From: Sebaldella termitidis ATCC 33386
Lineage (GTDB): Bacteria; Fusobacteriota; Fusobacteriia; Fusobacteriales; Leptotrichiaceae
DNA: 64,000 nt
Assembly (NCBI RefSeq): GCF_000024405.1
Contig: NC_013517.1
Location: 3,007,989-3,071,988, forward strand
Direction: 5' to 3'
Shown: positions 28,466 to 32,925 of the stretch, in pieces
Layout of the letters: the number at the start of each line of letters is the position of its first letter
Numbering within the stretch: the stretch's first letter is position 1
Made by a program: the position numbers and the translations under genes
The notes under the pieces: model-generated
Databases searched by the model: none
Told to the model about the DNA's origin: nothing
Seen by the model: the letters and a program-made list of their open reading frames with translations, nothing else

Positions 28466-28585
28466 ATGCTGGAGGAAGAAAGAAATTATTTAGAGTTTGT
28501 AATAAATCAAATAAAAGGAATGCAGGACGATATAAAAGAATCTGAAATAAGATTAGAAGAAAATAGGAAGGTGGTATTGGAATGA
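28466..28585 (+). CDS. Small helical protein (39 aa) coupled to rha
   Basis: An ATG after TAGGAGGAATAA encodes a 39-residue charged helix (LEEERNYLEFVINQIKGMQ...). Its stop overlaps the next ATG (ATGA), so it couples translation into the Rha gene. Function unknown. Confidence 0.6.
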   Translation: MLEEERNYLEFVINQIKGMQDDIKESEIRLEENRKVVLE

Positions 28586-29262
28586 ATGAATTAGTGTTAA
28601 TAAAGCATAATGAACCCGTTACTACTAGTATAATTATAGCTAAAGAAACTAAAAACCAACACAAAGGAATAGTGCAATTAATAAGAAAATATACCACTGA
28701 ATTCAGTAAATTCGGACTGTTACATTTCAAATGTACCGGTCAAAAAGGGAAAAAAGGATATAAAACTTGGTATGAATTAAACGAACCACAAGCCACTTTA
28801 CTAATGAGTTTTCTTGATAACAATGAAGTAGTTGTAGAATTCAAAGTCAAACTTGTTAAAGGTTTTTACACAATGAAACAATTTATCTTGAATCAACAAA
28901 ATAATCAGTGGCTAGATACTAGAAACAACGGTAAACAAATAAGACATGAGTTTACAGATATTTTATCTCTGTTTATAGATTATGCGTATTCTCAGGGCAG
29001 TAAGTCAGCCGATAAATATTTTATGATCTATACTAAACTAGTTAACAATACATTGGAATTAGAACCCAAACAAAGAGATATGATAGGAATTGCAACACTT
29101 AATGCTATTTCATTACTGGAAAACACTATGGGAAATATAGTTATCACTGAAATGGAAAAAGGAACTTACTACAAAGATATTTATAAAATGTGTCGTGATA
29201 ATTGTGTCGAATTTATGAAAGGTCTTTTTATTCAAAAGCCTGCATTACCAAAAGCTATATAA
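28582..29262 (+). CDS. Rha family phage regulatory protein
   Basis: This 226-residue protein has an N-terminal pRha domain (~1-95): SIIIAKETKNQHKGIVQLIRKY, then KGYKTWYELNEPQATLLMSFL and VKLVKGFYTMKQF. The C-terminal half is helical, with a hydrophobic ISLLENTMGN segment. Rha proteins are phage regulators that interfere with growth in hosts lacking IHF in the phi80 case; elsewhere the role is unclear. The gene is followed by the structured block. Confidence 0.8.
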   Translation: MNELVLIKHNEPVTTSIIIAKETKNQHKGIVQLIRKYTTEFSKFGLLHFKCTGQKGKKGYKTWYELNEPQATLLMSFLDNNEVVVEFKVKLVKGFYTMKQFILNQQNNQWLDTRNNGKQIRHEFTDILSLFIDYAYSQGSKSADKYFMIYTKLVNNTLELEPKQRDMIGIATLNAISLLENTMGNIVITEMEKGTYYKDIYKMCRDNCVEFMKGLFIQKPALPKAI

Positions 29263-29313
29263 AAAACTACCCCGCAGTAACTACAGGGCAATTCGATATT
29301 ATATTCGCAATTG

Positions 29314-29370: not shown

Positions 29371-29661
29371 AATCCCTCAACTGTACTGTCTATTAAGGGG
29401 GTTAGAAAAATAGACAGTACGGTTCAAGGATTGATATTAAGTATTAAATGGAATAACTCAATTTTCAGATTATTGGGTAATAGAAGAATGAGTTATTCCA
29501 CAAGAAACTTAATTTTACATCTGCACTGTCTTTTGGAGAGATTTCAGAGAATTAAAATCAGGCAGTGCAGAAAGGTATTAAACCTTTGACGGAGCAACTC
29601 AATAGGACTAGCCTCCTATTTACTCTCTCTAAAACTTGGGTTGTTCCATTAAAGGCTTAAT
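29371..29661 (+). ncRNA. Tandemly duplicated two-hairpin structured element
   Basis: Four long hairpins fill this gene-free stretch. C: 29371-29394/29409-29432, 24 positions, two mismatches. D: 29436-29460/29489-29513, with 12 perfect inner pairs TGGAATAACTCA/TGAGTTATTCCA. F: 29521-29530/29561-29570, 10 pairs. E: 29577-29600/29638-29661, 24 positions, two mismatches, with an inner 7-bp hairpin. C+D and F+E are related copies: CTGTACTGTCT vs CTGCACTGTCT, GGAATAACTCAAT vs GGAGCAACTCAAT, and a shared GTATTAAA and CTTAATT. Changes keep pairing: T84-A419 becomes C524-G567, and T454-A495 becomes C595-G643. Either strand could carry it. Function unknown. Confidence 0.6.
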
Positions 29662-29892: not shown

Positions 29893-29921
29893 ATTATATC
29901 ACTTTAAAGTTCTTTATTCAA
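29893..29921 (-). promoter_or_regulatory. Promoter of the small HTH regulator
   Basis: Minus-strand TTGAAT (29921-29916), 17-bp spacer and TATAAT (29898-29893). The spacer contains the perfect palindrome ACTTTAAAGT (29901-29910), a possible operator. Confidence 0.7.
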
Positions 29922-30029: not shown

Positions 30030-30650
30030 ATGCTTAAAAAAGAAATAGTGTTCCATGAGGACAAAATTTTGACAATTAAGGAAAATGGAAAAATCTATGT
30101 AAGTGTGAAACATATATGCAATGGCTTAGGCATGACTGAATCACAATGTAAAAATCAAAGAGACAAAGTCAACAATGACTATACTTTGAAAGGTGGGAGA
30201 ATTTTCGCCCCCCTTGAAACAAACGGCGGAATACAACAGGTTTTAATGCTTGAACTGGACTACTTGCCAATATGGTTAGCCAAAATAAACCCTTCAAGAT
30301 TCAACGAGGAACTTAAACAGAAACTGTTAGATTATCAGCTCCATTGTAAAGACATACTCGCTGATGAATTTTTCGGGAAAAGGGAAATGGTATTACCGGG
30401 CAAAGATGATACAAAAGTAAACCCACACTTAAATGATATTGACGACAGGTCTTTAATCATTAGAGGTATAGAAGCAGAACTTACAAGACTATACGATGAA
30501 TTAGTGTATCACTACAACTGGATAAGGAACAGATCAGAAACTAAAAGAGATGAATATATCGGAAATATCAGAAAAGCTAAACAAAAACATTTTATTGATA
30601 ACGGAAAAGAGCTTACTACTAAGGATATTGACAAGTTAAACGGAAGATAG
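30030..30650 (+). CDS. Phage antirepressor (P22_AR_N domain)
   Basis: This is a 206-residue protein starting at the ATG after TTAGGAGG. Residues ~1-115 show the P22 antirepressor N-terminal domain: ENGKIYVSVKHICNGLGMTESQCKNQRDKV, then LELDYLPIWLAKINPSRF and LLDYQLHCKDILADEFF. The C-terminus is a basic helical tail. Antirepressors bind and inactivate repressors. With the main repressor lacking its catalytic Ser, this gene is a plausible induction trigger. Confidence 0.8.
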   Translation: MLKKEIVFHEDKILTIKENGKIYVSVKHICNGLGMTESQCKNQRDKVNNDYTLKGGRIFAPLETNGGIQQVLMLELDYLPIWLAKINPSRFNEELKQKLLDYQLHCKDILADEFFGKREMVLPGKDDTKVNPHLNDIDDRSLIIRGIEAELTRLYDELVYHYNWIRNRSETKRDEYIGNIRKAKQKHFIDNGKELTTKDIDKLNGR

Positions 30651-32088: not shown

Positions 32089-32925
32089 ATGAAAAAAGCA
32101 TACAAAGTATTCGAACCAGATTGGATATGTAGGGATTATGACTATAAAAGAAATGGAAATGTAATAGGCGAAATATATGAAATGGATGGAGAAATTGAAA
32201 TATGTGAAAGAGGTTTCCATTACTGCCCTAAATTAGTTAATTGTTTTAATTACTATGGTTTTAATAGCAATAATAAAGTAGCAGAAATAGAAATTTTAGG
32301 TGACATAAAAAATGATGGTGACGATAAAGAAGTTACTAATAAATTTAAGATTATAAGAGAATTATCATGGCATGAGGTACTTGAATTAGTTAATGTAGGT
32401 TCTGGCAATACAGGAAACAGGAACTCAGGAGACTGGAACTCAGGAGACTGGAACTCAGGAGACGGGAACTCAGGAGACTGGAACTCAGGAGACTGGAACT
32501 CAGGAAACTGGAACTCAGGAAACAGGAACTCAGGAAACAGGAACTCAGGAGACTGGAACTCAGGAAACTGGAACTCAGGATATCTAAATACTATTACACC
32601 TGATACTATACTAGTTTTCAATAAAGAGTGTAGCCGAGAAACATGGAATAAAGCTATTAAACCTGATTTCATGTATTTCGATGTTTTAAATAAGTTCATT
32701 TATACTTGTGACATGACAGATGAAGAAAAAGAAAATAATCCTGATTATGAAGCTTTAGGCGGATGTTTAAGAAAAATGACATATAAAGAAGCATGGAAAT
32801 ATAGCTGGAATAATGCTAATAAAGAAAATAGAAAACTTATATTAAAGCTGCCAAACTTTGACAATGAAATTTTCAAAGAAATAACAGGAATAGATGTTTG
32901 CAAAGAGCTTGAAATAGATAAATAA
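32089..32925 (+). CDS. DUF7666-like protein with pentapeptide (NSGxx) repeat domain
   Basis: This is a 278-residue protein. The N-terminal part (~1-100) has EGEIEICERGFHYCPKLVNCFNYY-like features (ERGFHYC...C...YY), as in DUF7666. Eleven pentapeptide repeats of the Asn-x-x-Asn-Ser-Gly/Asp-Trp type follow at ~110-164. The C-terminal part (~165-278) is helical (ALGGCLRKMTYKEAWKYSWNNANKENRK). Pentapeptide-like repeats can fold into a regular stack. The function in phages is unknown; DNA mimicry is only a guess. Confidence 0.6.
   Translation: MKKAYKVFEPDWICRDYDYKRNGNVIGEIYEMDGEIEICERGFHYCPKLVNCFNYYGFNSNNKVAEIEILGDIKNDGDDKEVTNKFKIIRELSWHEVLELVNVGSGNTGNRNSGDWNSGDWNSGDGNSGDWNSGDWNSGNWNSGNRNSGNRNSGDWNSGNWNSGYLNTITPDTILVFNKECSRETWNKAIKPDFMYFDVLNKFIYTCDMTDEEKENNPDYEALGGCLRKMTYKEAWKYSWNNANKENRKLILKLPNFDNEIFKEITGIDVCKELEIDK
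32416..32580 (+). repeat. 15-bp tandem repeat, 11 units, in frame
   Basis: The unit is AACTCAGGAGACTGG and variants, encoding Asn-Ser-Gly-(Asp/Asn)-(Trp/Arg/Gly). The unit length is a multiple of three, so copy-number change would alter protein length without breaking the frame. Confidence 0.9.

Follow-up and report, generated by a model that had tools for sequence, protein, structure and literature searches.

The window analysed here is a 64,000-nt stretch of the Sebaldella termitidis ATCC 33386 genome in which a Rha-family gene and a small HTH gene converge on a block of four hairpins, C to F (positions 29371-29661; Table 1). The hairpins lie where the first-pass annotation had placed them. 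A 331-nt stretch with the block folds with -106 kcal/mol on the plus strand (z -7.5; none of 100 shuffles was as good) and with -100 kcal/mol on the minus strand (z -7.05). The HTH stop codon (29657-29659) abuts hairpin F, which so starts at the end of the reading frame. Rfam 15 gave 0 matches in the window that reached a family gathering threshold, and a permissive scan gave scores far below threshold only. This agrees with the earlier failure to recognise a known RNA class. A blastn search of the block against phages had no match, and no description of the hairpin element was found in the literature searched. GGGG or GGAGG is frequent in hairpin loops (e.g., window 29395-29403 and the loci L035, L036 and L065) and resembles a Shine-Dalgarno sequence.

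Table 1. Features of the hairpin block and its surroundings (window positions).
Feature	Positions	Strand	Evidence and remarks
Rha-family gene, convergent	28582-29262	+	PF09669, E=3e-16; does not belong to the element
Terminator-like stem with T run	29264-29294	-	Consensus match; the sole site of this kind, outside the block
Hairpin C	29371-29432	+	G-rich loop AAGGGGG; nearer the family plan on the + strand
Hairpin D	29436-29513		Related to F; near-palindromic, strand ambiguous
Hairpin E	29520-29571		Inverted repeat, 12-nt arms, 92% complementary; sequence resembles C
Hairpin F	29578-29660	-	Member linked with the HTH gene; R2 29.5 bits
HTH_26 (Cro/C1-type) gene, 69 aa	29657-29866	-	PF13443, E=1.5e-21; PHROG matches to transcriptional repressors
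Promoter-like site for the HTH transcript, TTGAAT-17-TATAAT, TG before second hexamer	29893-29921	-	Consensus match

The HTH gene has a promoter-like site in front of it, and the terminator-like site lies on its strand; together they suggest a structured 3'UTR on the HTH mRNA, although promoter-like matches of this kind are no commoner than in shuffles. Such an mRNA would be ~630 nt long and would end at the terminator-like stem, with F, E, D and C as its 3'UTR. Further along the window, a 278-aa protein (32089-32925, plus strand) contains a run of NSGDW/NSGNW pentapeptide-like repeats.

Reading the sequence bore out both exchanges of base pairs that had been proposed between related hairpins. 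T29384-A29419 in C corresponds to C29524-G29567 in E, and T29454-A29495 in D to C29595-G29643 in F, with both sides changed each time. The 4.49-Mb genome (three contigs) holds a second copy of the block in another prophage (G000:C1:888343-888657, 96% identity). E and F are unchanged, and all nine differences between the copies fall within C and D. They include a further double change in C, where 29385 A>G is accompanied by 29418 T>C and an A-T pair becomes G-C.

The HTH flank is identical at the second copy, and the gene at the other end encodes a different Rha-like protein. The assignment of the block to the interval between rha and the HTH gene was therefore not confirmed; the block moves together with the HTH gene rather than with rha. 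A P22_AR_N antirepressor-like gene (window 30030-30650, plus strand; L002 521-1192, minus strand) is, like the HTH gene, identical in both prophages, and the Rha-like genes differ. From these sequences, a recent exchange between the resident prophages appears probable.

Relatives of the HTH protein (PF13443) were found in Fusobacteriota, viral contigs, phage Funu1 and a Fusobacterium animalis plasmid. A single-protein query of genome contigs gave no HTH relatives; an alignment query reached non-fusobacterial ones. In 17 of 18 fusobacterial relatives, a hairpin starts at or shortly after the HTH stop codon, and most of these hairpins have one common plan. The Leptotrichiaceae loci L039, L040 and L045 have hairpins at the same place, yet these are unrecognised by the family covariance models R1 and R2. 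The motif is absent from the HTH relatives outside Fusobacteriota, Clostridial, Bacillus, Acinetobacter and Faecalibacterium ones among them. Strong folds occur in 3 of 16 cases from these four named groups and are terminator-like in appearance.

Among 98 fusobacterial genomes, 10 had matches to model R1, 27 in all with one place counted on both strands, and R2 widened the family to 11 genomes. DNA-pattern scans of viral contigs gained just four loci, and two or more of these came from contigs that were part of the set before. The hairpins form arrays: six lie behind one HTH gene in G033:C10, and two each were found in G041, G022, G058 and G021. The ~80-nt hairpin that starts at or shortly after the HTH_26 stop codon recurs directly 5' of accessory ORFs that are unrelated to one another. 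In 29 of 37 cases, an ORF that has a ribosome-binding site starts 10-77 nt behind the hairpin (median 18 nt); the usual distance is 10-49 nt. The products include a SWIM-like protein, DUF2321, membrane proteins, a lipoprotein and a TIR-effector-like protein. The hairpin is not the private leader of one gene family; this was rejected because the accessory families also occur without it. A putative repressor-like HTH gene often lies further downstream, and the one of L102 has the sequence PVYGAASAG, as in S24 repressors.

Homology between copies often starts and stops at the hairpin itself. The two copies in L100 share 95% identity over a stretch that coincides exactly with the hairpin; copies in L099 are 96-98% identical (H1/H4 96%) and those in L048 93%. 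Small basic ORFs (MKKIKK...-like) on the opposite strand begin ~16 nt from the upstream edge of the hairpin in L099, L064, L048, L033 and L100. Some copies are chromosomal, are associated with a ~70-aa protein and retain a scrap of the HTH 3' end ahead of the hairpin. This protein (MLDLSK...; L103 4735-4947, L105, L112 and L104, genus g25) is often preceded by the family hairpin. It had no Pfam or PHROG match; by eye, its C-terminal half recalls Sm/Hfq-like sequences.

Covarying homologues, whose absence the first-pass annotation had named as a refutation, are numerous. The natural unit in these other loci is a single hairpin of ~80 nt, which replaces the two-hairpin unit proposed earlier. Twelve HTH-linked hairpins share a consensus of 21 pairs, 13 of them changed on both sides. 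For a larger set, 33 hairpins were aligned without using structure. In this alignment, 92.5% of the cells are paired and 16 of 23 pairs have changed on both sides. Covariation is 0.558, against 0.182 +/- 0.013 in shuffled and at most 0.148 in slid alignments. The conserved part consists of two mismatches, one 1x1 (mostly C.C) and one 2x2 (CA/CA), with their neighbouring letters. Outer stem, inner stem and loop are free to vary. As judged from aligned sequences, selection on the fold is strongly supported, well beyond two paralogous units. The structured element is real, undescribed and strongly covarying, and its genomic habit is unusual.

How far the window hairpins belong to this family was assessed with both models; R2 was built without window sequence. 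Hairpin F reached 29.5 bits with R2 (E=0.0017 for the 88 kb searched), best on the HTH strand. In a local search with R1, F, C and D ranged from 22 to 25 bits; C had 25.2 bits on the plus strand versus 14.3 on the minus strand, and D 21.8 and 18.9 bits. With R2, C had no match and D was marginal (17.6/17.5 bits). Hairpin E matched neither R1 nor R2 and is linked solely by its sequence similarity to C. A genome-wide R1 search (4.49 Mb, to E=10; 150 prefiltered candidates scored) had a sole match, the identical F of the second prophage, with a weak E=0.56. Judged by model score and position, at least one of the four hairpins, F at the HTH gene, is a distant copy of the family hairpin, and C and D are weaker members. 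The window array is atypical in its number of hairpins, four, and in its lack of a following accessory gene: no convincing minus-strand accessory ORF was present between C and the terminator-like site. The block may be terminal DNA of a mobile element.

The reading that we favour, though at somewhat less than even chances, takes the element as a conserved hairpin at boundaries in the lysogeny region of fusobacterial temperate phages that would act as RNA. In the lysogen, the region would be transcribed from the HTH promoter. Each hairpin would form an RNA structure, intercistronic or in a 5' leader, with its end ~18 nt upstream of the next start codon. RNase III-like processing might take place there, or the structure might simply insulate and stabilise each accessory mRNA. 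Exchanged genes would then be expressed alike, whatever their neighbourhood. Since the hairpin is repeated, it could also be the place where modules are exchanged. The intergenic RNase III processing hairpins of phage T7 are intercistronic, have internal loops and sit just ahead of phage-gene ribosome-binding sites. The family hairpins have the same placement and internal loops, shortly upstream of the next gene start. Unlike a T7-type site, the window hairpins have no gene behind them. The family also differs from T7 in sequence and in being tied to a small HTH gene and to interchangeable genes of the lysogeny region.

Several observations are in favour of an RNA: the position at the HTH stop codon, the covariation, the ORF start behind the hairpin, promoter-like and terminator-like sites on the same strand and the homology blocks bounded by hairpins. 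In related single copies, species share promoter-like sites that lie 17-20 nt upstream of the hairpin (L102/L107; L108 and the second L102 hairpin), although such sites are common by chance in DNA this AT-rich. Their conservation would make the hairpin a 5' leader. The base changes point the other way. One-sided changes at ordinary pair columns gave an A-C to G-U ratio of 14:16 on the coding strand, with four special columns left out. This parity is unlike RNA selected on one strand; decaying copies may blur it. Moreover, 27 of 35 hairpins are more stable on the opposite strand when RNA energies are used. Of the original proposal of selection on an RNA fold, selection on a fold stands, given the 16 pairs changed on both sides in 33 hairpins and the failure of the shuffled and slid controls; the fold may act as RNA. 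Between RNA and folded DNA, we lean narrowly to RNA.

The folded-DNA alternative is a cassette-boundary site, in which the strand opposite the accessory gene would extrude as a hairpin and a recombinase would insert or exchange cassettes. It would be attC-like, but without integron integrase, and is rather unlikely. Arrays in which unrelated genes each have a neighbouring hairpin (six in G033) suit this model, and so does the within-array homology that begins and ends at the hairpin (L100, L099 H1/H4 and L048). The greater stability of the opposite strand also fits; with DNA energies it is seen in 22 of 35 hairpins (p=0.06). An A-C excess of 37:16 (p=0.005) corresponds to G-T on the other strand; it comes from a crude minimum spanning tree and is confined to four columns. 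Against the DNA site, a TIGR02249 search of nine of these genomes gave no integron integrase that exceeded the cut-off, and no recombinase was seen adjoining the arrays. Two copies carry ~39 nt of the HTH 3' end before the hairpin, which puts that junction outside the hairpin. The one 'empty site' examined (genus g25) is a decayed half hairpin, a sign of decay and not of insertion. Integron attC sites are described in PMC6393395 as folded single-stranded hairpins with a strong bottom-strand preference. Like attC sites, the family hairpins are imperfect, of comparable size and set in arrays next to unrelated single-gene units, with a variable loop and similarity within arrays. Unlike attC, its conserved part is internal instead of outer boxes, it has symmetrical mismatches instead of bulged bases, and its hairpin starts a gene rather than ending it. 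The wider proposal of an integron-like phage system is unlikely. In it, single-stranded DNA hairpins would mark and exchange single-gene cassettes of the lysogeny region, anchored at the small HTH gene, by a recombinase other than integron integrase.

The near-palindrome could instead be used in both directions, as leader RNA for the gene on each side, which we consider improbable. The opposite-strand ORF starts beside the hairpins of L099 (several), L100, L064, L048 and L033 and the equal counts of G-U and A-C are what it would predict, but the HTH-linked hairpins have no opposite-strand gene there, the models mostly score one orientation higher and the second direction has no promoter evidence. 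Just as improbable is a dispersed, REP/MITE-like selfish hairpin that settles by chance beside phage accessory genes. REP/MITE hairpins are likewise short stand-alone repeats with sharp boundaries, and the family's own stand-alone copies with exact limits, like its chromosomal copies, some of them decaying, are in line with dispersal. The family is set apart by its low copy number (1-6 per genome in about 10 of the 98 genomes) and fixed gene context. Almost all copies have a fixed orientation and either follow the HTH stop codon or directly precede an ORF, and neither a transposase nor a target duplication or flanking tetranucleotide was found. Ordinary bidirectional terminators would explain the place of the window block between convergent genes and are very improbable indeed: no T run follows the hairpins, the hairpins of the relatives lie upstream of genes and not at gene ends, and the stems have at least 20 bp with fixed mismatches. 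The tandem structured repeats in a phage region also recall the RNA of type III toxin-antitoxin systems. The unit differs, being a ~80-nt hairpin without an Rfam match, and the window contains no candidate ORF for a type III toxin gene downstream of the repeats.

The element poses a clear question: whether a gene-boundary hairpin is retained because it serves mRNA handling or because it serves gene exchange. In the latter case, phages would own a cassette system. The covariance model provides a searchable mark for sites of interchangeable accessory genes in fusobacterial phages, one of which resembles a TIR defence effector. This post-hairpin ORF, containing FIVCPISDE, is present in L110 and L109 and matches the PADLOC TIR effector with E=7e-14.
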